Shown: positions 1,827-45,859, counted from the stretch's first letter. The stretch: DNA of 64,000 bases from an uncultured Brevibacillus sp. (GCA_946402065.1 CAMIVR010000010.1:1-64000), one strand, 5' to 3'. Translations and numbers: made by a program. The notes: a model not told the origin generated them from the sequence alone.

Positions 1827-3044
1827 TCACCTCTTGTCTGCTTTCGGCGAACCTTCGGCAGAGACGCGTTCTGCTTGCCAGTAAAAATCTGCAAAGACGT
1901 CAGCAAACGCTTCTACCGAGTTGTAGCACTCCTGAACCGAATTTTCCGGTCCCCCGACCTCCAGCAGCAAGCTTCCCGGGGAGACCGATTGGTTGTACTC
2001 ACCATTATTCCCATTTCCTTCACTTTTAGCTGCAACACCGCGCGAAAGTCCCGGGTATTTCTTTTCCAGCAGCGCATGCAGCTCCTTGGCCAGCTGCGCG
2101 TTTTTCTCGTGGTTTTTGTTCAGCATGCCGATGACGAAAAACAGTCTCGCATACGTTTTGCCGTTGATGACGATCGTTGTGTTGTCGCGCGGCTTTGAGT
2201 CGCGATGGATGTCAAAGTAGTATTTGAGGCCGTGATTCCGCTGCGTTGCCGCCATGACCGTCTTGAGCGACTCGGCGTAGGAAAGCGGATAGCTCTGCCC
2301 TTTATCGACCAAGCGCTGGTAGATGTCGTCGGTGTTGACTTCCGTGCCGATCCCTTTGTCCCGCAGCGCTTCTCCCAAATGCCTGCCGACGAGGGTAATG
2401 TTTCGCGTCGGATGGTCGATCGACTCGCCCTGCCTGGTCGTTTCGCTCAACCAGGACTCCCTGTTGTGCGTATGGTAGACGAAGACCGTATTGTCTTTAG
2501 CCGGAACGGGATTGGCATGCTTGGGCTCGGTATTTTCTGTCGTAGGCTCCTCGATCGTCGGCGCTTCTGTCTGGGGCTGTTCCTTTGCCAGGTCGGAGGA
2601 TTTGGGAGGATTGGCCAGCGAATCAGGCACCTCCAGCTCGGGAATGGTCGGGGGCGGATATTCGACGTACAGGTCGGCGGGGCCTGTGCCCTTGCCGGCT
2701 ACGATCAAGCGAGCATCGTCAAACGTCAACAGACCAGGCAGCTCTCGTCCCAGCAGGCTGCGCAAATCTCCGGGGTGAATACTGGTGATCAGCTCGAAGA
2801 CAAAACTGCTGACAGAACCGCTCTCGTGATTCTCTGAAGCTTGTATGGAATCGGCCAGTGTCGGAATCTCTTTGCTCATGATCTCGATCATCGCCAGACT
2901 GGAGACGTTGGCAGTGGCCTGCTGTATCGTTGACGATGTCAGCATCAGCCGGTTGCCCGCCATTGCCATCCCGGCTGTAATCAAGAAGAGTAGTGCTGTG
3001 CCGAGAGAAAGTATGATAAAGTGGCGCTGCAATAAGTTCGTCAT
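1827..3044 (-). CDS. spoIIP: Stage II sporulation protein P (peptidoglycan hydrolase of the engulfment complex)
   Basis: 405 aa. There is an N-terminal transmembrane anchor (about residues 10-30), a low-complexity Pro/Glu/Thr linker (about 125-185) and a C-terminal SpoIIP domain. That domain starts near VFVYHTHNRESWL and contains the conserved His/Glu residues. SpoIIP is an amidase and endopeptidase that acts with SpoIID and SpoIIM to thin septal peptidoglycan so that the mother-cell membrane can migrate around the forespore. An AGGAGGAGAAG Shine-Dalgarno precedes ATG 3044. The gene lies between gpr and yqxA as in B. subtilis. The gap to gpr holds two strong hairpins, so it probably has its own promoter as well. 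Confidence 0.95.
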   Translation of the reverse strand: MTNLLQRHFIILSLGTALLFLITAGMAMAGNRLMLTSSTIQQATANVSSLAMIEIMSKEIPTLADSIQASENHESGSVSSFVFELITSIHPGDLRSLLGRELPGLLTFDDARLIVAGKGTGPADLYVEYPPPTIPELEVPDSLANPPKSSDLAKEQPQTEAPTIEEPTTENTEPKHANPVPAKDNTVFVYHTHNRESWLSETTRQGESIDHPTRNITLVGRHLGEALRDKGIGTEVNTDDIYQRLVDKGQSYPLSYAESLKTVMAATQRNHGLKYYFDIHRDSKPRDNTTIVINGKTYARLFFVIGMLNKNHEKNAQLAKELHALLEKKYPGLSRGVAAKSEGNGNNGEYNQSVSPGSLLLEVGGPENSVQECYNSVEAFADVFADFYWQAERVSAEGSPKADKR

Positions 3045-3147
3045 TGCTTCTCCTCCTCTGACTCTCGCTTGCGTGTCTTACTCTATCACTATGCTGGTAG
3101 CAGAAGAGGTAGAACGAATTTTTTACTAGAGATAAGTTGATAGAGAA

Positions 3148-3221
3148 ACACGCCAACGCATCCAGCCTGCCATGTGACCTAAGAGAAGGTCGACAGTCAG
3201 ACTTGAGAGACGTTGGCGTGT
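3148..3221. repeat. Structured inverted repeat in the gpr-spoIIP gap
   Basis: An 11-bp perfect inverted repeat, ACACGCCAACG at 3148-3158 and CGTTGGCGTGT at 3211-3221, encloses 52 bases that hold an inner GACC/GGTC hairpin. As minus-strand RNA it ends in GTGTTTCTC, so a gpr terminator or a structured spoIIP leader are both possible. Confidence 0.5.
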
Positions 3222-3233
3222 GTGATTTCACGG

Positions 3234-3271
3234 GATGAGCGAGATGCGCCACAGTGGCGCTCTCCCTCATC
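3234..3271. repeat. Strong hairpin downstream of gpr
   Basis: GCGCCAC-A-GTGGCGC core (3246-3260), extended outward by GATGAG...CTCATC and GAGA/TCTC to give a stem of about 18 bp with few mismatches. There is no U-run on either side, so it is not a classical intrinsic terminator. It may protect the gpr mRNA 3' end or act as a processing site. Confidence 0.5.
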
Positions 3272-3316
3272 AGCGTTGGAAAAGCTGATCTCTTGCCAGT
3301 GTCGCGGCGGGTGCTG

Positions 3317-4417
3317 CTAATGCGTGTACGCGCTCAGATTCTCGTCGTTTACTGCCTGGTGCAACGCATTGTTCAAGCCGCTGGCGATTACATTGGCAAC
3401 TCCTTCGATGAATTCATCGATCTCTTTTGGCGTGACGACGAGGTTTTGTCCAAGCGGCTGCAGCACTTCGTGTATGAGCTGTCGCTTATCCCCTTCGGAC
3501 AGGCTGCCGACCAGCCCCATGAACGTCTTGCGCGACTCCAAATCGGGCAGGTCCGCTTCCGTATACGGTTCCTTGCGCTCGGGCAGGTCGCTCATCGCCA
3601 GCCGGTTATAGGCCCGTTTGCTCTCCGCAAGAGACTGTCCAAAGTGACCGAGCAGATACGTGATTGCATCGTGGACGATGGTTGACGCAAAGACGACGGT
3701 AGGAACACCGATGGCAATCACCGGGATGCCCAGCGTTTCTTTATCGATCGCCTTGCGCTTGTTCCCGACGCCGGATCCGGGATGGATGCCTGCATCTGAG
3801 ATTTGAATGGTCGTGTTCACCCGGTGCAGCGCCCGTGAGGCGAGAGCGTCGATGGCGATGATGAAATCAGGCTTGCTCTGCTCGACCACGCCGAACACGA
3901 TCTCGCTCGTCTCGATACCGGTGATGCCGAGCACCCCGGGTGACAAAGCGCTCACTTCGCGATAGCCCTCTTCGACCGTTTCCGGTGCGAGTGTAAACAG
4001 ATGCCTGGTTACGAGCAGGTTCTCCACGACAAGCGGACCGAGCGCGTCAGGCGTGACGTTCCAGTTGCCCAAGCCTACAACGAGCGCCTTTTTGTCCACC
4101 GTCAGGCCCAGATCGTCGAGAAACCGCTTGAATTCCCGGGTAAAGCGCCTGGTCACCTGCGCTTCAATCTCCGTGTCATTGTTGCGCAGCTTGGGTACCT
4201 CGATCGTCACGTAGCGACCTGGCAGCTTGCCGATCTGCCGCCCTGCTTCGGCGTCTTTTACCGTGATTCGGGTGACCTTGATCCCCGGCTCCTGTTCATC
4301 GTCCTCCATCTGGACGCCGGTAAGATCGGCTCCTCCTTGCTGTTCGGCCAATTCGCGGGACTCCACTGCCAAATCGGTCCGTATCGAATAGACGGATAAA
4401 TCGATGTTGTGCTCCAT
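3317..4417 (-). CDS. gpr: Germination protease (GPR) for small acid-soluble spore proteins
   Basis: 366 aa from ATG 4417, close to the 368 aa of the B. subtilis enzyme. The N-terminus YSIRTDLAVE and the regions VVGLGNWNVTPDALGP, PDFIIAIDALAS and HPGSGVGNKRK are hallmarks of the A25 family. GPR is made in the forespore as a zymogen and degrades SASP when the spore germinates. An upstream in-frame ATG at 4462 would add 15 residues, but the GGAAAGGAG motif sits about 10 bases before 4417 and that start gives the usual N-terminus. It is divergent from rpsT; a sigma-G-like promoter overlaps a hairpin at 4487-4509. Confidence 0.95.
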   Translation of the reverse strand: MEHNIDLSVYSIRTDLAVESRELAEQQGGADLTGVQMEDDEQEPGIKVTRITVKDAEAGRQIGKLPGRYVTIEVPKLRNNDTEIEAQVTRRFTREFKRFLDDLGLTVDKKALVVGLGNWNVTPDALGPLVVENLLVTRHLFTLAPETVEEGYREVSALSPGVLGITGIETSEIVFGVVEQSKPDFIIAIDALASRALHRVNTTIQISDAGIHPGSGVGNKRKAIDKETLGIPVIAIGVPTVVFASTIVHDAITYLLGHFGQSLAESKRAYNRLAMSDLPERKEPYTEADLPDLESRKTFMGLVGSLSEGDKRQLIHEVLQPLGQNLVVTPKEIDEFIEGVANVIASGLNNALHQAVNDENLSAYTH

Positions 4418-4480
4418 CGCATTCCGGCTCCTTTCCACACTGGTTGGATGTGCTGCATTCATCCTTTGGCAACTCTTTAC

Positions 4481-8172: not shown

Positions 8173-8717
8173 GCCCTGACCCCTCCTTTCTGATATTCTC
8201 CCAATTTGTCCTGTAACTGTTGACGAGCGCGAAACAAATATGATTTCACCGTGTTTAATGGCAATTCAAGCGCCTCCGCTATTTCTTGATAGGAAAAATC
8301 CTGCAGGTAGCGCAAAACAATCACCAGCCGATACTGTTTCGGCAGTTGTCCTATCGCTTCTTGGATGTCACTTGACAACTGTTTGACCAGAACAGCCTCT
8401 TCCACCGAATACGTGTCAGGGAGAACAATTTCGTGTTCGTCGATGGAAATGACTTCTTTTTGCGAACGGAACTTGTCGATGCAGACGTTGCTGACTATTC
8501 GCTGAATCCATGTAGAAAATTTCGCTTTTTCCTGAAAGGTGTGTATTTTTCTGTAGATGCGTATCAGAGCTTCCTGGCTGGCGTCAAGAGCATCCTGCTC
8601 GTTGCCAAGAATGTAAAAAGCGCTCCGATAGACAGCGTTTTCGATTGAACGCAACAGTTCAACGAGTGCTTCATGATCGCCTTCCTGTGCTTTTTTAATC
8701 AATTCCGCTTCTGTCAT
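8169..8717 (-). CDS. RNA polymerase ECF sigma factor (sigma-70 family)
   Basis: 182 aa. Region 2 holds ALDASQEALIRIYRKIHTF and FSTWIQRIVSN; region 4 holds LPKQYRLVIVLRYLQDFSYQ followed by an HTH ending in LNTVKSYLFRARQQL. This is the SigW/SigX-type ECF layout without regions 1 and 3. It is followed with a 4-base overlap by its anti-sigma gene. GGGGGAGGAG stands just before ATG 8717. A candidate self-recognised promoter lies at 8734-8760. The regulon cannot be read from this window. Confidence 0.93.
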   Translation of the reverse strand: MTEAELIKKAQEGDHEALVELLRSIENAVYRSAFYILGNEQDALDASQEALIRIYRKIHTFQEKAKFSTWIQRIVSNVCIDKFRSQKEVISIDEHEIVLPDTYSVEEAVLVKQLSSDIQEAIGQLPKQYRLVIVLRYLQDFSYQEIAEALELPLNTVKSYLFRARQQLQDKLGEYQKGGVRA

Positions 8718-8733
8718 GTCTCCTCCCCCTTTC

Positions 8734-8760
8734 GACGCTGTTGGGCGCGAAAAAGTTGCA
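8734..8760 (-). promoter_or_regulatory. Candidate autoregulatory ECF promoter
   Basis: Minus strand: TGCAAC at 8760-8755, 17-base spacer that begins with a T-run, then CGTC at 8737-8734. This resembles the TGAAAC-N16/17-CGT(A/C) pattern of Bacillus ECF sigmas, which commonly control themselves. The predicted leader would be only about 10 bases, which weakens the case. Confidence 0.35.
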
Positions 8761-8812
8761 CGCTGCTGAAAATCTTATTTCTATCCGAGGAATTTGCAAA
8801 ACACCGGGCTGT

Positions 8813-11179
8813 TTAATCGACGATTTCCGTTTTCCATTTCATTCCATCCCGGTCAACGGTCAGCGTAACCGCGCCGTCCCGATCCGTTCGTAAAATGGTC
8901 ACCCCTGCGTGTTCAAGACGACGTAGCACGTCGGGTGCCGGGTGGCCGTACCGGTTGTTGCGACCGACCGAAATCACCGCCAGCTTCGGCTGTATTCTAT
9001 CTAAAAATGCCTGTGTCGTAGAACTTTTGCTGCCATGATGAGCCACTTTTAAGACGTCGATTGGCGGCAGCAGGTCACGCTCAAGCAATATCCCCTCACC
9101 ATTTGCTTCCAGATCACCGGTAAACAGTATATTTACCCCGTATGCGGTCAAAAGCAGGACAACAGAGGCGTCGTTATCACGGAGGCCGTCCTGCTTGTCT
9201 GGATGCAGCCAGGTCCAGCGTACACCCGGTGCATCTGTCCAGCTTGACTGGCTGGTTCCGGTATACACCGGTGCGTTCCGCTCCTTTACCATTTCGATCA
9301 GTTCTTTTTCTTTCCCTTCTGGCGGTTTTCCATTAACCAGTGCTGCCCCGACGGATACCCGCGGCAGCCACCCGCTAAACCCGCCGATATGGTCCAGATC
9401 CCCATGTGTCATCACGATCCGTTCGACTCGCTCGATTCCCCGCGAGCGCAAGAACGGCAGGAGCGTATCGCGCCCCACCTCAAAAGGCTTGCGCCGCTTT
9501 TTCCACTCCGCTTTCTCGGCAAATTGGACTACTCCGCCGCTGTCGATGACGTAGACAAGCGAATGGCCGATCTCAACGACGGCGGAATCCCCTTGTCCGA
9601 CGTCGAGAAACGTGATTCTCACCTGTCCATTTCCGTCAAATGGCTGCCGTGCCCAAATCATGAAGAGAGCAAAACATAAGATGTATATTACCATATCCTT
9701 TCCCCGATGGTAACCACGTCTCCAGCAAACCAGCACAGTGACGAGAAAAATCGCGTAGCCGGCAAGCCAGTACCAGGAGGGGTGCGGCCAAAAGGAGAAC
9801 GGGACGCGAATGCTGTGAATCTGCTCCAAGAGACCATGAACAAACGTCACCAGCCAGGTGATGACGTTTGCCGGCAGGACAGCCAGAGATGGGTGAATCG
9901 TGCCCAAAAGCAGCGCCACATAGCCGAGTGGCAGGACGCCGATCGACAAGACGGGGACAAACAGCAGGTTGACCGGCCACGACATGGGAGAATTTTGATG
10001 AAAATAATAGATGAGAAACGGAAAGGAGACGAATTGTGCAGCAGTCGTGACGGCGAGCGACGAGCGCAGCCACTCGAATTTGCTGATGCGAATGCTCATC
10101 AGCAGCGGCACGAACTCGATCAAGCCGAGCGTCACGGCAAAGGACAGTTGAAATCCAAGGTGCCAGAGCTGGTACGGGTTGATTGCGAGCATCAGCATCA
10201 GCGCCAGACTCCACAGATCACGCACGCGAAAACGATGCCCTGCATAGCTCCCCCACAAATATAGGCCGCTCATCAGACCGGCTCGCACAGCCGAGCCGCT
10301 GGCGCCTACCAGCATGACGTAAAAAGCGACCAGCGCCATCGTCAGCCAAAGGGCTTTTGCCTTGGGCAAGCCAACCTTCCTCAACAACAGCGAGCAAAAT
10401 CCGCTGACCAGCGTGACGTGCAAGCCAGAGATGGCCAACACGTGGATCAGTCCCAAATCCGAATACATCGCTGCTACTTCCGGCGACGGGCCGTCCGCCA
10501 CGCCCAACAGCAGAGATTTCAGAAATCCCGCAGTATCCGCATCGGAAAAAAGCGTGTCGATCCGCTTGGCTGCCGCTTCCTGGAGTCGGTGGAACTGCGC
10601 TTCGACGCTCCTGTTTCCCGGTCTGACGCTTACTTGATCGAAGCCGGCTTTGGCGATGACGGTTACTCCTTGCCAGCGAAGGTAATCACCGTAGTCAAAC
10701 CCGTGCGGATTTCTCGCACGCTCCGGGATTGCCAGGGTCATTTGGCCGTGCAGCAGATTGGCCTCCTGCCACGCCGACACTGCTTCCACCTGCTCCTCTT
10801 CACTGAGCGTGATCCGGGCCAGTACCGTTTCTCCGGCGTAAGGTTCACTCGTGATTCGCAGAAAGCATTGGACCAGATCGCCGTCGCGTTTCAGCGAAGA
10901 CGCGATCTGTCCGTCAAGAGTGACTTGCTGCGCTTGTTCGGCCAGCGGCTTCAGTGCCGAGGCGTGCAGATGATCGTAGACAAAAAAATAGCTGACCGCA
11001 ATCGCGCAGACGATCGCAAACTGCCACACGCCGGCTCGACTGTGTTTCGGCAAGAGCAAGATCAGGAGGATCAACGCAGCAGCCGCGACCGCCCATACAA
11101 ACGGCGGCAGCTGTGCCGCAGCAAAAAAACCCGTCACTGCCGCCATACTTAGCGAAAACATACGCCAATGTCCGTCCAT
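8813..11179 (-). CDS. comEC: DNA internalization competence protein ComEC/Rec2
   Basis: 788 aa, usual length. There are N-terminal membrane helices and a DUF4131-like region, then the Competence domain with many helices (about residues 220-490; VLAISGLHVTLVSGF is the family signature). A C-terminal metallo-beta-lactamase-like domain follows (FLDVGQGDSAVVEIG near 525, THGDLDHIGG near 588, ILFTGD and VAHHGSKSS). ComEC is the membrane channel that takes up single-stranded DNA during transformation. It is divergent from comEB, unlike the comEA-EB-EC operon of B. subtilis. GGGGAGGAA precedes ATG 11179. It appears intact. Confidence 0.96.
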   Translation of the reverse strand: MDGHWRMFSLSMAAVTGFFAAAQLPPFVWAVAAAALILLILLLPKHSRAGVWQFAIVCAIAVSYFFVYDHLHASALKPLAEQAQQVTLDGQIASSLKRDGDLVQCFLRITSEPYAGETVLARITLSEEEQVEAVSAWQEANLLHGQMTLAIPERARNPHGFDYGDYLRWQGVTVIAKAGFDQVSVRPGNRSVEAQFHRLQEAAAKRIDTLFSDADTAGFLKSLLLGVADGPSPEVAAMYSDLGLIHVLAISGLHVTLVSGFCSLLLRKVGLPKAKALWLTMALVAFYVMLVGASGSAVRAGLMSGLYLWGSYAGHRFRVRDLWSLALMLMLAINPYQLWHLGFQLSFAVTLGLIEFVPLLMSIRISKFEWLRSSLAVTTAAQFVSFPFLIYYFHQNSPMSWPVNLLFVPVLSIGVLPLGYVALLLGTIHPSLAVLPANVITWLVTFVHGLLEQIHSIRVPFSFWPHPSWYWLAGYAIFLVTVLVCWRRGYHRGKDMVIYILCFALFMIWARQPFDGNGQVRITFLDVGQGDSAVVEIGHSLVYVIDSGGVVQFAEKAEWKKRRKPFEVGRDTLLPFLRSRGIERVERIVMTHGDLDHIGGFSGWLPRVSVGAALVNGKPPEGKEKELIEMVKERNAPVYTGTSQSSWTDAPGVRWTWLHPDKQDGLRDNDASVVLLLTAYGVNILFTGDLEANGEGILLERDLLPPIDVLKVAHHGSKSSTTQAFLDRIQPKLAVISVGRNNRYGHPAPDVLRRLEHAGVTILRTDRDGAVTLTVDRDGMKWKTEIVD

Positions 11180-40639: not shown

Positions 40640-41467
40640 ATGTTTGCGACAAATTGGGTGCCGCTGCAAAAATCCCTGCGCAAGGTCGGCCCTGTGTGGC
40701 ATGTATACCGTCGCAACGGTGAGCGCAAAGAGTTCGGCTATTTCAAGTATTCCACAGCGAAAAGCAGACGATTGGCCGGGCCAATGATCGCCAACGAGTA
40801 CATCAGCTATCGCTTGGCCTCGATGTCAGGACTCGATGCAGCGGAATTCGAGTTTGCCAAAGTAGAAGGAATCGTCGGCGGGGTCTCTATCGTCAAACCG
40901 ATCGGCAATCTCGCAAGTTGGAATCAACTGCGTCAGCGTAAAGGAATGCCGGTAACGCACTTCCTGAGTCGGCCGGAACAACTGCTGAACCTCTTTGTGT
41001 TCGACACGTGGATTTGCAACCTGGACCGACACGGCGGCAATCTGATTACCTACCCTGTCGGCCGATCCTATGATTTTTATTTGATCGATCACGGTCTGTC
41101 GCTACTGGGTGCGCTTTGCTGGCGAGGGGTTCATTGGCCGTCGCCTTACTGGAATCACGTGTCGAAGTACAATCGCCACTACGTAGCCGGTTTGATCTCC
41201 TCCATTCGCTCTGCTGAACAACTGGAGCCGTTTATTTATCGCATTCAACAAATTCCCGCCAGAAGTATCGAGCACATCATCAGCGAAGTTCCCTCCTGCT
41301 TTCTCAACCGCAAGCAAGCGGGAATCATCTATCAACTGCTCCTCTCGCGGCAGAAAGATCTCCCGTCGATTCTCGCCCTCTGGTTTCAGAAATACAAGAA
41401 AAGCACGTCGACCACGACAAGACATACGTGCGAAGAACACGTTGACGACTACTATTACTATTACTAA
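40640..41467 (+). CDS. HipA-like kinase family protein with poly-tyrosine C-terminus
   Basis: 275 aa from ATG 40640 (GGGAGGAG five bases upstream); the longer frame from 40547 is unsupported. HipA/PI3K-like features are a nucleotide-binding beta region with VSIVKPIG, the catalytic loop NLDRHGGNL (NxDRHxxN form) and the metal-binding FYLIDHGLSL. No HipB partner or antitoxin is present, so it is not a classical toxin-antitoxin module. The protein ends EEHVDDYYYYY, an acidic tail with five tyrosines. The position next to CotB-like and ATP-grasp coat genes suggests spore-surface protein modification, by inference. Confidence 0.85.
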   Translation: MFATNWVPLQKSLRKVGPVWHVYRRNGERKEFGYFKYSTAKSRRLAGPMIANEYISYRLASMSGLDAAEFEFAKVEGIVGGVSIVKPIGNLASWNQLRQRKGMPVTHFLSRPEQLLNLFVFDTWICNLDRHGGNLITYPVGRSYDFYLIDHGLSLLGALCWRGVHWPSPYWNHVSKYNRHYVAGLISSIRSAEQLEPFIYRIQQIPARSIEHIISEVPSCFLNRKQAGIIYQLLLSRQKDLPSILALWFQKYKKSTSTTTRHTCEEHVDDYYYYY

Positions 41468-41772
41468 ACGTTTGCTTGATCATTGGAACCGCTATCGAAC
41501 CGCCTGTGCAAGCCTCAAAGCTGTTCATCCGAAAGACTCCCAGGGCTCTCCTGGTTGTTTTATCCTTTCAAAAAGTTACATTCGCTAAAGCCCTAGCTTC
41601 GTCATGACGCCCGCATTTTGACCGTTCATATTCAGTCCATACATGCTCGTCCAGTGGTGCGCACGCGGACCTGTCCGCTCGTATGGCTCGCTCGATCAGC
41701 AGTCAAAGCCAACCGTGCCCTGAAGCGATTGGCCATGACGCTACGCACTGCTTTTCTTCGGGCAGCACAATT
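41468..41772. other. Gene-free spacer of about 300 bases
   Basis: Between the HipA-like gene and the terminator at 41773. It has no ribosome-binding-site-led ORF and no conserved motif. A 70-codon frame at 41618-41830 (+) runs through the terminator hairpin and has no start signal. I see nothing functional. Confidence 0.4.
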
Positions 41773-41805
41773 GGCAAAAAGCCGATCACATATCGGCTTT
41801 TTGCC
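41773..41805. terminator. Strong bidirectional terminator
   Basis: 14-bp perfect stem GGCAAAAAGCCGAT (41773-41786) with ATCGGCTTTTTGCC (41792-41805), 5-base loop, with a U-run in both directions. It ends the small coat-protein gene (-), whose stop is one base away, and probably the HipA-like gene (+). Confidence 0.8.
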
Positions 41806-41806
41806 A

Positions 41807-42472
41807 TTAAGGTGTATAGACTGCTTTTAAATGCTGAATATTCCACATGATGCGCTGCCCTTCACCAGTTACCAACTCTAGCAGGTTGTTTTCAATCTTC
41901 TGCAGCAATCCGATTTTATGGGGATTATCTCCAATGTCAAATACGACTATCCTCCCTTCAAGCTTCTTTAAATGCTCTTCAAAAGTGCGGGGCAAGACCA
42001 TTTTCGCAGGATGAACCGGCAGGTGCTCATCCCCCAGCGTGTACGGCGTGCTGGTCCGATTATACGGCGTCAGCCATTTGAGATGGTGCAGGGCAATAAA
42101 CATCGTCTTGTAGACAGGCGAATAAAAGACAAAGTAATTATTTAAAATACTCGTGACATACCCATGAATGGATTGGTTCCCCGAGACAAAAATCTCGGTA
42201 AAGAGACCTTTGGCATTGTTTAGTATATTGCGGAAAGAGATTTTGTCTGTTTGGCTATCAATCAGCATTTTATCGTTTGAAATTTCTTGAAATTGCGAAT
42301 TTGTGCTAATCCTCATATTTTGCACTTGCATAAGAGGAATATAGCGGTAATGCTCGCCCGAATTGATGACGAGGATGTCCAGACCGTAGTCTACGAGCAT
42401 TCCAAAGACTTTGATTTTTCCGGACAGCTCTATGGATACAAAGTTATTCAAGTATTGATCGAGCTGGTTCAC
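41807..42472 (-). CDS. Sm-like/DUF2642-type spore-coat-associated protein
   Basis: 221 aa from GTG 42472 (GGAGG six bases upstream; a TTG two codons earlier touches it). It has three successive ~60-residue beta-rich segments with the wording NNFVSIELSGKIKVFGMLVDYG...LVINSGEHYRYIPL, GLFTEIFVSGNQSIHGYVTSI and EGRIVVFDIGDNPHKIGLLQKI. Each resembles the Sm-like fold seen in CotB and DUF2642 proteins. A paralogous relation to the CotB-like gene 136 bases upstream (in minus-strand sense) is likely. The coat role is inferred from fold and context only. Confidence 0.7.
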   Translation of the reverse strand: MNQLDQYLNNFVSIELSGKIKVFGMLVDYGLDILVINSGEHYRYIPLMQVQNMRISTNSQFQEISNDKMLIDSQTDKISFRNILNNAKGLFTEIFVSGNQSIHGYVTSILNNYFVFYSPVYKTMFIALHHLKWLTPYNRTSTPYTLGDEHLPVHPAKMVLPRTFEEHLKKLEGRIVVFDIGDNPHKIGLLQKIENNLLELVTGEGQRIMWNIQHLKAVYTP

Positions 42473-42554
42473 ACGCAACCTCCTTCTGCCGATACTCCCT
42501 GAATATCAGCACAACTTTATTACGCAAATGCGAGAGCACTTCCTCTTGCCCAAA

Positions 42555-42597
42555 TAGGTGCATTGGAGGTCACGTCAGACGTCAGCCAATGCACCTA
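42555..42597 (-). terminator. Hairpin after the CotB-like gene
   Basis: 12-bp perfect stem TAGGTGCATTGG (42555-42566) with CCAATGCACCTA (42586-42597). The 19-base loop contains a second small ACGTC dyad. It lies 11 bases after the stop; on the minus strand ATTTGG follows. Confidence 0.55.
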
Positions 42598-42607
42598 CGT
42601 GTCTTCT

Positions 42608-43645
42608 TTAGACCCTTCTCGCTCTTTGCCGGGACACCACAGTCGTACTCTTTATTGGCCGAGATGAGCGTGTAACTTGGGAAGCACGCTGTCTATGGTC
42701 TTTCCTTACCGTGCTGGAGAAGATCGGGCGATTTCCCATTCGATTTTGGCGGGAGTTGGTCGGCATCCTTCTGCTGCGGTTCGACCGGTTGCCATATCTG
42801 CTTGCATATCTGTTGCCATATCTGCTCGCAGATCGTCTAACGTACCGGTTGGCATACCTCGTATACTGGCGGCTGCTTTTTTGCTGTGACTGTTGACTTT
42901 GGCTCTCGCCTTGCTGCTGAGAACCTTGATTTTGGCTGGAATTCTGGCCTTGCGTCTGATCCGACTCCTGCTGAGCTGCTTCTGCCTCTTTGTAGCTGAA
43001 ATTGCGTACATGGAATCGGGAAATGTAATACACCTCTTTGTTGACGATCATGGTAATGTACTCATCTGTGCTGGCTGACACGACCCCTTCCAGAGCTTCC
43101 GGTCCGCCACGATTGATTTTGATCCAGCGATGCTGCAGACTCCTCAGCAGTTCACCCATGTTACTGCCAGTGATATACGCTGTGCCGCCTTTCATCTCTT
43201 CCTGGACAGAAGTATCTTCATTGATACTTTTGACATGGCTGGTTTGATAGTAGAGGACACCATCCTCTTTTGTATTTATGACGAAGTAATCCTCACCCAC
43301 GCCGAGCAAGCGTCCGGTTCTCGATTCGGGACCGCCTCGATCGACCCGAACGAATTTGTTTTTCAAACCCTGGAGAATATCGGAGAGCGATTCGATTTCC
43401 TCGTAACTGCCGGACGTATCAGTTGACCGTTCCGCGGATCCGGAGATCTTGTTTGACTCCTCACAGACACTTTTGATGTGCTCGAGATTGTAATAGATAA
43501 TGCCGTCTTTTTCTGTCTCCAGAACGAGAATGTTGTTGTTAACCGCGAGCACTTTTCCGTTGCGAGATTCCGGCCCGGCTTTGTACACTCGTATGACCTT
43601 CCCCACCATCGAACGTAAAAAACCCGTCTCCGCATTATTTCTCAT
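42608..43645 (-). CDS. cotB: Spore coat protein CotB-like
   Basis: 345 aa from ATG 43645 (AGGGG seven bases before). Three Sm-like repeats each carry a GGPE or AGPE turn: KVIRVYKAGPESRNGKVLAV, FVRVDRGGPESRTGRLLGVG and WIKINRGGPEALEGVVSAS. The same order and wording occur in B. subtilis CotB. The C-terminal third (about residues 225-345) is low-complexity, Gln/Ser- then Arg/Tyr/Asn/Ser-rich (NRYVRRSASRYGNRY), where CotB has its Ser/Lys repeats phosphorylated by CotH. Here the tail is Tyr/Arg-rich, so modification could differ. Outer coat location is expected. Confidence 0.88.
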   Translation of the reverse strand: MRNNAETGFLRSMVGKVIRVYKAGPESRNGKVLAVNNNILVLETEKDGIIYYNLEHIKSVCEESNKISGSAERSTDTSGSYEEIESLSDILQGLKNKFVRVDRGGPESRTGRLLGVGEDYFVINTKEDGVLYYQTSHVKSINEDTSVQEEMKGGTAYITGSNMGELLRSLQHRWIKINRGGPEALEGVVSASTDEYITMIVNKEVYYISRFHVRNFSYKEAEAAQQESDQTQGQNSSQNQGSQQQGESQSQQSQQKSSRQYTRYANRYVRRSASRYGNRYASRYGNRSNRSRRMPTNSRQNRMGNRPIFSSTVRKDHRQRASQVTRSSRPIKSTTVVSRQRARRV

Positions 43646-43901
43646 CAGATATCCCCTCTCATTTGTCTGCAAGGTTTATTTGTTATGCATGTATATGTGC
43701 CGGGAAATGAGATGAGATAAGCATTTTCACTATTTCTTGAAAATTGGTCTCCTAACGATCAGCTAATGCCACTAGACTACCTCCTCTAGGAAAATCCGCT
43801 CTTGTTGATAGGTACATTCCGTAGAGTTTGCAAAATCCGGTGAATAGTATGTAAAAACCCTGGCGTTGCCAGTCCAGTTCATCCGAGAGGAGAGGGATGT
43901 C

Positions 43902-44702
43902 TTGAGCTTTTATCGCAAGATCGGCAAGTGGGCAAAATACTGCCACATGCGATCTGACCCTGTGTTATCGCCGACGCTGGCGGAAACAGAGCCATTGGAT
44001 GAGCAATCGTTTTGGAATTTTCTGGATCGCTATAAGAAAGTCATACTGAAGCCGGTCAGCGGGGCACGCGGTGCGGGAATATTGGTTGTGACGAAAGTGG
44101 CAGATCATTGCTACGCAGTGAAAATACGCAAAAAACGTTACTGGATGAAATCGCGTAAACGCCTGTATTCCTTTATAAAGGCAATCGCAAAACGACGACC
44201 TTATCTCGTTCAGCGATTTGTTTATTTCGCGCGTCTGGATAATCGCCTGTTTGACCTGCGCATAATGGTTCAACGCGACAAGAATTTTGCCTGGACAGTG
44301 ACAGGTAGATTAGCCAAGCTTGCCTATTACGGATACAGTGTGACCAATCCGGAGAAAAAAGTCCTGTCGGTAGCGTCTGTGCTAAACCGCTCTGCCGTCA
44401 ACACATGTTCACCTGATGGCCTGATAGAGCAAATCGATTCTCTCGCCTTGCGGGCAGCCGATCGACTCGCAGAACCATATCCAAAGCTATCGATCATCGG
44501 CTTTGATATAGGCGTCGATGTCGAGGGGAAAATTTGGTTGATCGAGGCCAATTTTCTCCCCGCCATCTACTGGTTTAAACAACTGCCCGAGCAATCCGCC
44601 TATGCTGCTATCATCGCTCATAAAAAGCTGAGTTTCCCCCGCTCGCCTCAACAGAATCAGATTTCTCTTCCAAACGACGAGGAGTTTTATTTCTATCACT
44701 GA
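43902..44702 (+). CDS. YheC/YheD-type ATP-grasp spore-coat-associated protein
   Basis: 266 aa from TTG 43902 (GAGGAGAGG six bases before); the in-frame ATG at 43866 has no site. The ATP-grasp fold is seen in VILKPVSGARGAGILVV (nucleotide-binding Lys and Gly loop), PYLVQRFVYF, LFDLRIMVQR and the metal-binding ending GFDIGVDVEGKIWLIEANFLP. YheC/D proteins are linked to the endospore coat in Bacilli, but their product is unknown. The C-terminus is NDEEFYFYH, an acidic/aromatic tail like that of the HipA-like neighbour. It is divergent from cotB. Confidence 0.85.
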   Translation: MSFYRKIGKWAKYCHMRSDPVLSPTLAETEPLDEQSFWNFLDRYKKVILKPVSGARGAGILVVTKVADHCYAVKIRKKRYWMKSRKRLYSFIKAIAKRRPYLVQRFVYFARLDNRLFDLRIMVQRDKNFAWTVTGRLAKLAYYGYSVTNPEKKVLSVASVLNRSAVNTCSPDGLIEQIDSLALRAADRLAEPYPKLSIIGFDIGVDVEGKIWLIEANFLPAIYWFKQLPEQSAYAAIIAHKKLSFPRSPQQNQISLPNDEEFYFYH

Positions 44703-44863
44703 TGGGTTGGTGGCCTGTGTTTGATCGAGAACCGGTTCACTCTGTCGGTGCCAAAAACTCTCGACTTATTGCCAGGGCCTCCTCCTCCGTGAAGAGCCAC
44801 TCTTCGGAAATCGTTTTGTCATACGATTGCCCGCCCGGGTCCGCAGGTTGCACTCAGCGGTTT

Positions 44864-45418
44864 TTATTCCGCTTTCGCATCCATCCCGATTTTTCGCCCG
44901 GGATAATACATTTTCGCTTCATTGACCGGATTTACTTTTGCGGTAATTTCTGTTGCAGCGAGTTTATAGACGGCGACTTTTGCCCCGTGCGAAGAAACAT
45001 ACTTCAGAACATGCTGCTTGGACAGCGGCGAATCGTAGTAACCGGGGACGTACTTGTCCAGCAGCTGCTGCAAGGCTGCTGTCGCCTCCTCAATCTCCCC
45101 TACTCGCTCTACCTGTCCAAACACCATGACGCTCATATACGCAGTGTCGGTTTCTGCCGGAACCGGATGGGCGATCGTGCCGTACGCCTCACAGACGAGA
45201 AAACAGGCGCGTTGATTCGTCTGCATAATCGTCTCTTTGCGGCCCGCATCGGCACCGTGAAAGTAAATCGCATTGTCGTACCAGACAAAATTAAGCGGAA
45301 CGACATAGGGCTGGTCCCCGTCCGCCAGTGCGAGCGAACCAATCTCTGCCTTTGCCAAAAAGTCGTTGATTTGCTGCTGATCGTCACATGTACGGGAGCT
45401 GTACCTGATCGTATTCAT
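44864..45418 (-). CDS. Pyridoxamine 5'-phosphate oxidase-like flavin-binding protein
   Basis: 184 aa from ATG 45418 (AAGGAG eight bases upstream; a GTG three codons earlier is also open). The split-barrel FMN-binding fold is suggested by IGSLALADGDQPYVVPLNFVWYDNAIYFHGA and RACFLVCEAYG, as in the PNPOx-like/NimA-like family. These proteins bind flavin or heme; this one's reaction is unknown. It sits inside the spore-surface neighbourhood but on the opposite strand, with no evidence of a link. Confidence 0.85.
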   Translation of the reverse strand: MNTIRYSSRTCDDQQQINDFLAKAEIGSLALADGDQPYVVPLNFVWYDNAIYFHGADAGRKETIMQTNQRACFLVCEAYGTIAHPVPAETDTAYMSVMVFGQVERVGEIEEATAALQQLLDKYVPGYYDSPLSKQHVLKYVSSHGAKVAVYKLAATEITAKVNPVNEAKMYYPGRKIGMDAKAE

Positions 45419-45607
45419 CCTTCCCACTCCTTCTCAATATGCTTGATGCATGTATACACAAGATTGTAGGAGATCGACTGACCTTTTCATATGGTCAGTT
45501 CCTTTTATTTTGATCAGGACAGAATCATCACGAAAATGGGTATCTGTCTAATGCACTCCTGACCATCCAGGCATAATGTATGGTATCTATGTATAGGAGG
45601 CCTGAGG

Positions 45608-45859
45608 TTGAAAAGGAAAAACGACTGTATTCCATACGATCAGCCAGTCTATCATTACCGGCCCGCAAGACAGGAGCTGCCGGGAGCGTCGCCATTTATC
45701 ACCCATCTTCAGCAGCAAGTCGGAAAATCGATCACGGTCGTGACTTCATCGGATAAATTGCTTGGTACTCTCGCTGCTGTATATTCAGACCACATCGCCC
45801 TGAGAAGAGACTCAACGATTTACCATATCCCCCTTTTCAGCATCGTCTATTTTTATTGA
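45608..45859 (+). CDS. Small DUF2642-like (Sm-like) protein, probable spore-coat component
   Basis: 83 aa. TTG start at 45608 with AGGAGG five bases upstream. A Tyr/Pro-rich N-terminus (YDQPVYHYRPARQE) precedes a compact Sm-like domain with VGKSITVVTSSDKLLGTLAAVYSDHIALRRDSTIYHIPL. This is the DUF2642/CotB single-repeat pattern. It ends in SIVYFY. Similar small proteins are spore-associated in Bacillales; the role here is inferred from family and neighbours. Confidence 0.72.
   Translation: MKRKNDCIPYDQPVYHYRPARQELPGASPFITHLQQQVGKSITVVTSSDKLLGTLAAVYSDHIALRRDSTIYHIPLFSIVYFY

Follow-up and report, generated by a model that had tools for sequence, protein, structure and literature searches.

What does a HipA-like kinase do when its gene has no antitoxin partner and lies among genes for spore-coat-type proteins? 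The question is raised by a 64,000-nucleotide stretch of DNA from an uncultured Brevibacillus sp. (hereafter the window, meaning the whole stretch), in which an initial annotation had placed, at positions 40640-45859, a HipA-like kinase, a CotB-like protein, a second Sm-like protein, a DUF2642-like protein and a YheC/D-type ATP-grasp enzyme. From the distribution of this branch of kinases and from the genes that accompany it, we conclude that the branch probably serves in building the spore surface, as a “spore-surface kinase”, and not as the toxin of a toxin-antitoxin pair.

A solitary HipA-fold kinase

The kinase gene has no antitoxin gene beside it:
40640..41467, + strand: HipA-fold kinase gene, solitary; 275 amino acids (aa) from an ATG start, with a 258-aa kinase domain and a short disordered tail; clade A of the kinase tree described below

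Searched alone, the window kinase matches the HipA_2 family (PF20613) with an E-value of 1.8e-5 and 24.6 bits, under the Pfam cut-off of 27 bits. A profile built from 15 kinase sequences finds the HipA-like kinase CtkA among the solved structures of the Protein Data Bank (PDB; E 1.6e-6), and an AlphaFold2 model of the window kinase (predicted local distance difference test score 89.2, predicted template modelling score 0.87) has fold matches to CtkA, PI4KII, HipA and HipT, with E-values of 4e-8 to 7e-5. The protein has the marks of the HipA superfamily: a PI4K-like fold, a DRxxxN catalytic motif and an (I)D metal motif. Across an alignment of 15 divergent members, E53, the catalytic-loop residues D129 and N134, and the metal-site residue D150 are invariant and K36 is nearly so; because of this conservation, the window kinase is expected to be active.

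No HipB, HipS, HIRAN, DUF3037 or other antitoxin gene adjoins the kinase gene, whose neighbors are an aspartokinase gene upstream and the gene for Sm223, a coat-type protein, downstream. Fold, catalytic-site pattern and neighboring genes thus bear out the initial description of a HipA-like kinase without HipB or another antitoxin. We found no CotH domain (PF08757) in the window kinase, and it matches neither TIGR02906 nor PF01636, the families of CotS and CotI. The profile of a PADLOC defense candidate, PDC-M03A, matches it at 1.3e-11; the locus has no DUF3037 gene, which we treat as the PDC-M03 partner on the basis of distant loci and not of PADLOC’s own rules.

Distribution and gene neighborhoods of the kinase branch

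A single-sequence query of a one-genome-per-species collection returned one relative only, and we therefore used whole-genome searches. We define the core branch by a score of at least 200 bits against kinase profile A1, and treat lower scorers as more distant HipA_2 groups. In the class, 83 of 399 genomes have a kinase-profile match, and in the phylum sample 8 of 299 do. SpoIVA is present in every one of the 41 core-positive genomes, compared with 268 of 399 across the class sample (p ~3e-8, with kinship ignored), while the distant, low-scoring HipA_2 group is found also in SpoIVA-negative genomes such as G100. Among 14 control genomes, which included Bacillus subtilis, PF20613 was found in one Bacteroides only. 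None of 50,697 phage or 72,556 plasmid records contains a kinase match, and on this ground we reject a phage or plasmid origin.

We scored 51 fetched core loci for six markers within 5 kb. The commonest partner is a GT4 glycosyltransferase, here called GTA, which is present at 19 of the 51 loci; GTA and HipA genes lie on the same strand and at most 75 nt apart (abutting or overlapping) in 17 of 18 measured pairs. Viewed from the other side, 11 of 28 genomes searched carry GTA in a total of 12 copies, ten of which directly adjoin a HipA gene; of the remaining two, the copy in G056 lies within 3 kb of HipA, and a second copy in G240 is unlinked. A CotS-type kinase, identified by TIGR02906 (195 bits in L039, plus a genome-wide search), is found at five of the 51 loci. 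YheC/D ATP-grasp genes are found at nine, or ten with the window, where about 1.2 of 53 loci would be expected by chance given that core genomes carry about 6 to 18 YheC/D genes each. Linkage recurs in GTDB families f1, f12, f19 and f48, and the statistics for GTA, CotS and YheC/D lead us to reject chance co-location for the kinase family. The CotB/Sm223 pair occurs at L031 only, plus the window, with a CotB gene 9 kb away in L049; the case that the window’s own CotB neighborhood is not fortuitous would rest on two genera and on one distant locus, L136.

In the kinase tree, clade A comprises 17 sequences including the window’s and has no GTA, and clade B comprises 33 sequences, GTA-linked apart from the Brevibacillus-like g7 copies and several more; L039, which has CotS, GTA and GTB nearby, branches separately from both. 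Contexts in clade A are CotB, Sm223 and ATP-grasp genes at the window, CotB and Sm223 at L031, an ATP-grasp gene convergent with the kinase gene at L038, and adjoining rhamnose and glycosyltransferase genes at L035-L037. The evidence for linkage is therefore weaker in the window’s clade and strongest in its sister clade: the association with spore glycosyltransferases is seen for clade B and not for the window copy. The window genome has no GTA, and no glycosyltransferase gene lies beside the window kinase. The Brevibacillus-like HipA copies (L046-L048, L115-L119) lie in the hemB-hemL region, several of them after hemL and a GyrI-like gene; in B. subtilis, hemL is followed by spoVID-ysxE.

We also inspected promoters, using assumed SigE and SigK consensus patterns. 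Of 34 core HipA genes that are not GTA-linked, 10 have a SigE-like -10 element upstream, compared with 6% of control genes, the sequences being related to one another.

Several distant HipA_2 genes directly adjoin another GT4 glycosyltransferase gene (L127, L144, L145, L148, L151-L153, L156), fall within CotS/uridine diphosphate-sugar clusters (L124, L134, L142, L147), or lie beside YheC/D genes (L126, L133, L139, L141), with a tandem YheCD-HipA-YheCD-HipA array at L126 (7733-12057; family f31). At L136 (8313-11034; GTDB family f28), a HipA_2 gene lies tail-to-tail with a gene homologous to Sm223 (303 bits), and 112 bp from the HipA_2 gene is one that encodes ESESESQRH repeats, a trio that, by analogy, strongly recalls cotB-cotG-cotH. 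The lowest-scoring HipA_2 group is partnered by DUF3037 (in L161 and L162, for example) or HIRAN; it resembles the PADLOC defense candidate, and we used it as an informal control. The initial annotation had made its proposal hinge in part on whether HipA-like homologues are linked to coat genes in other genomes, and in many genomes they are, through GT4/CotS clusters, YheC/D genes and CotB/Sm genes.

As a separate observation, HipA_2 genes at L155 and L157 adjoin genes whose proteins end in poly-Ser plus acidic tails (SSSSSSDDDH, for example), three of them in tandem at L157, and a CotS-like kinase was noted at these loci too.

We also searched in reverse, starting from CotB loci. The sister genome G001 (L185) has ATP-grasp, CotB and Sm223 genes in the same order as the window, its ATP-grasp protein being 43% identical to the window’s. 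At L186 (G006), an APH-type kinase gene (8465-9439; PF01636, 5e-23) lies directly upstream of CotB-Sm223, which suggests that the kinase position beside CotB is filled by unrelated families. In genus g3 the order, complete in L031 and unlike the window in arrangement and surroundings, is Mur ligase, CapA, Sm223, CotB, HipA, exonuclease; L032 is without CotB and Sm223, and L187 without Sm223 and HipA. The CotB loci L188, L189 and L190 have no kinase neighbor. Overall, the survey shows that a kinase beside CotB is frequent and not obligatory. A 134-aa gene at L185 (13048-13452), convergent with Sm223, has the look of a kinase N-lobe by eye; it has no Pfam match and nothing significant in the PDB, and was not counted.

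Genes and C-terminal tags at the window locus

All five genes lie where the initial annotation had put them. Beyond the kinase gene, the locus contains:
41444..41467, + strand: acidic-aromatic tag of the kinase, DDYYYYY followed by the stop; pattern [DE][DE][YF]4x-stop
41807..42478, - strand: Sm223, a coat-type protein of 223 aa, Sm/DUF6897-like; its gene and the kinase gene converge across a 340-bp gap
42608..43672, - strand: CotB-like protein gene; disordered tail after three Sm-like repeats; listed start TTG at 43672, ATG at 43645 also possible
43902..44702, + strand: YheC/D-type ATP-grasp enzyme; PF14398, E 2.7e-48; 266 aa, likely TTG start; divergent from the CotB-like gene
44679..44702, + strand: tag of the ATP-grasp enzyme, EEFYFYH followed by the stop; same pattern
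44864-45427, - strand: gene for a flavoprotein resembling Nim (5-nitroimidazole reductase); stands between the ATP-grasp gene and the DUF2642 gene
45554..45580, + strand: good SigK-like promoter, CAC N15 CATAATGTA, ahead of the DUF2642 gene; background rate of 0.0025 per 200 nt
45608..45859, + strand: DUF2642 single-Sm-repeat protein; E 7e-8; loosely linked

A C-terminal tag is common to the kinase and the ATP-grasp enzyme; its pattern has two matches in the 5.84-Mb window genome (G000), both at this locus. The sister genome G001 has a single match, DDFYYYS, on its CotB-adjacent ATP-grasp enzyme (L185 9818-10627), and the reversed control pattern has none in G000 or G001. The L031 kinase ends in DYLYYYYS, and the tail of the L090 kinase is also Tyr-rich. 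Single matches of the pattern in further genomes do not exceed what the reversed control gives, and we left them out of account. The tag may act in coat targeting or cross-linking. Along with the ten core loci that have a YheC/D gene nearby, this shared tag supports the proposed connection between HipA-like kinase and ATP-grasp enzyme.

The CotB-like protein matches DUF6897 (E 1.4e-12), and its model shows three repeats, each of a helix and five strands, followed by a disordered tail; it resembles small-barrel PDB entries, Hfq among them. For this protein the three-repeat description stands; the tail, which had been called Tyr/Arg-rich, is rather Arg/Ser/Gln-rich with some Tyr (24 Arg, 21 Ser, 15 Gln and 6 Tyr in the last 110 aa). 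Sm223, put forward as a second three-repeat protein, has sub-threshold profile matches only, at residues 7-53 (DUF6897) and 168-221 (MM0924 family), and its homologue travels with CotB in other loci. Kinase, ATP-grasp enzyme and the two Sm/CotB-type proteins form the cluster that had been described; the DUF2642 gene is its loosest part, since the Nim-like gene separates it from the ATP-grasp gene. An Rfam scan around the locus found no RNA element. Elsewhere in the window, SpoIIP-like and Gpr spore-protease-like genes were recognized by eye at 1827-4462.

Alternative readings and known systems

We propose that the kinase would be made in the mother cell during sporulation, a timing suggested by the confinement of the core branch to SpoIVA genomes and by the SigE-like -10 elements upstream of relatives. 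Kinase and ATP-grasp enzyme would then be brought to the forming coat, perhaps by their common acidic-Tyr tail, and the kinase would phosphorylate a coat component encoded nearby. For the window’s clade, the likeliest target would be the Ser/Arg-rich tails of the CotB/Sm-type proteins, making a CotB-CotG-CotH-like module in which the kinase is of another family. In the sister clade, the target may be a sugar, a glycan or a glycosyltransferase, as proposed for CotS-type kinases, because the commonest partner there is a glycosyltransferase. In its action the window kinase may resemble a CotB-kinase module or one of the CotS-type kinases, although by sequence it belongs neither to the CotH family nor to the CotS family. 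We put forward direct phosphorylation of the CotB-type tail only tentatively, with the balance tilting against it. A fuller scenario has a HipA branch recruited from toxin-type kinases to coat assembly, unrelated kinases standing beside cotB in different lineages (CotH in B. subtilis, HipA-type at the window and L031, APH-type at L186), and the tag bringing kinase and ATP-grasp enzyme into the coat to phosphorylate CotB-type tails and ligate groups onto them; taken whole, it seems to us unlikely.

Several observations weigh against a spore-surface role. Thirty of the 51 core loci lack all six markers in the surrounding 5 kb, among them most of the window’s clade and the Brevibacillus-like g7 copies, and CotB adjacency to the kinase is known from two genera only. 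Because related loci share history, the linkage p-values overstate the case. The window kinase gene has no clean sigma-E or sigma-K promoter upstream. Overall there is no enrichment of Ser-rich neighbors (3 of 549 near versus 1 of 1010 far), and we rejected them as a general rule. Spore-type CotH (~370 aa) is present in 4 of 22 HipA-positive and 2 of 14 HipA-negative genomes of family f1. The initial idea of coat-modifying enzymes is partly supported, by the spore-surface gene context; linkage to CotB, however, is the exception within the window’s clade (the window, L031 and, at 9 kb, L049). The suggestion that the kinase may replace CotH is not supported either: we found no CotH-domain gene across the window genome, yet spore-type CotH is rare with or without HipA. 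Since the presence of one does not go with the absence of the other in the family, we claim no swap and set strict replacement aside as unproven.

In the most serious competing account, the coat contains this protein as a kinase of sugars or small molecules, or as a substrate-binding pseudokinase, that acts with glycosyltransferases and ATP-grasp ligases on a spore-surface glycan in the manner of CotS/CotI, with CotB nearby only incidentally. We consider it possible, if somewhat improbable. The tight GTA-HipA coupling, the nearby CotS and nucleotide-sugar genes, and the rhamnose and glycosyltransferase genes adjoining clade-A loci L035-L037 all point this way, as does the same genomic setting reported for CotS/CotI (Scheeff et al., PMC2860764). 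The window copy fits it less well, having neither an adjacent glycosyltransferase gene nor a GTA in its genome, and linkage to CotB/Sm223 is seen repeatedly, at the window, L031 and L136; moreover, the characterized HipA-family kinases in the papers we found (HipA, HipT, YjjJ) are protein Ser/Thr kinases.

A structural or scaffold protein of the coat could also keep a kinase fold with no need of catalysis. Repeated loss of catalysis and noncatalytic functions have been inferred for several spore kinases (Scheeff et al., PMC2860764), and the window, L031 and L090 kinases have Tyr-rich tails, but the conserved E53, D129, N134, D150 and K36 argue for catalysis, and we give the scaffold account little credence. 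Least credible of all is an orphan HipA-type toxin, stress kinase or phage-defense kinase that came to lie near coat genes by chance. Its superfamily fold, the PDC-M03A match and the DUF3037 and HIRAN partners of the most distant HipA_2 group would suit such a role; against it stand the missing HipB, HipS, HIRAN and DUF3037 genes, the empty phage and plasmid searches, and a core branch that is strictly SpoIVA-associated with recurrent spore-gene linkage, unlike the distant group.

HipA-family kinases are almost automatically read as persistence toxins, and if a spore-surface role is correct, many “HipA family” labels in spore-formers mislead. The branch would then add a third family of kinases to CotH and CotS/CotI at the spore surface, one whose partner glycosyltransferase and ATP-grasp ligase are named, and it would make testable both coat-protein modification in spore-formers without CotH and the role of sporulation-regulated YheC/D ATP-grasp proteins. 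In the open-licence literature we found no paper joining HipA kinases with spores or spore coats, although a report outside it may exist. Gerdes et al. (2021; PMC8262856), in their phylogeny of HipA kinases, retained a kinase only if a putative antitoxin gene lay next to it; spores are nowhere mentioned there.

Among known systems, the HipA, HipT and HipH toxin kinases share the fold and catalytic-site pattern of the window kinase, which differs in having no antitoxin gene, no separate match to the N-terminal HipA subdomain, and a spore-gene context. CtkA of Helicobacter pylori, also a HipA-like kinase, is its best solved match by profile and by fold, at 14% identity and from an unrelated biological context. 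The bacterial spore kinases CotS, CotI, YtaA and YsxE resemble the HipA branch in kinase fold, in linkage to spore glycosyltransferase and nucleotide-sugar genes, and in sporulation-linked distribution; they are choline/aminoglycoside-kinase-like proteins (PF01636, TIGR02906), however, and in some loci one is a separate gene beside the HipA relative. YheC and YheD of B. subtilis, whose genes belong to the sigma-E regulon (PMC517825), share PF14398 with the window ATP-grasp enzyme, which is a short form with an acidic-aromatic tail. Finally, the CotB-CotG-CotH system of B. subtilis, in which CotH phosphorylates CotB (PMC7821199), resembles the window and L031, where a kinase gene adjoins the gene of an Sm-type coat protein whose Ser/basic tail is disordered, and L136, where a Ser-rich repeat gene is the third part; the window has no cotG-like gene, and its kinase is of the HipA fold where CotH is a PF08757 kinase.

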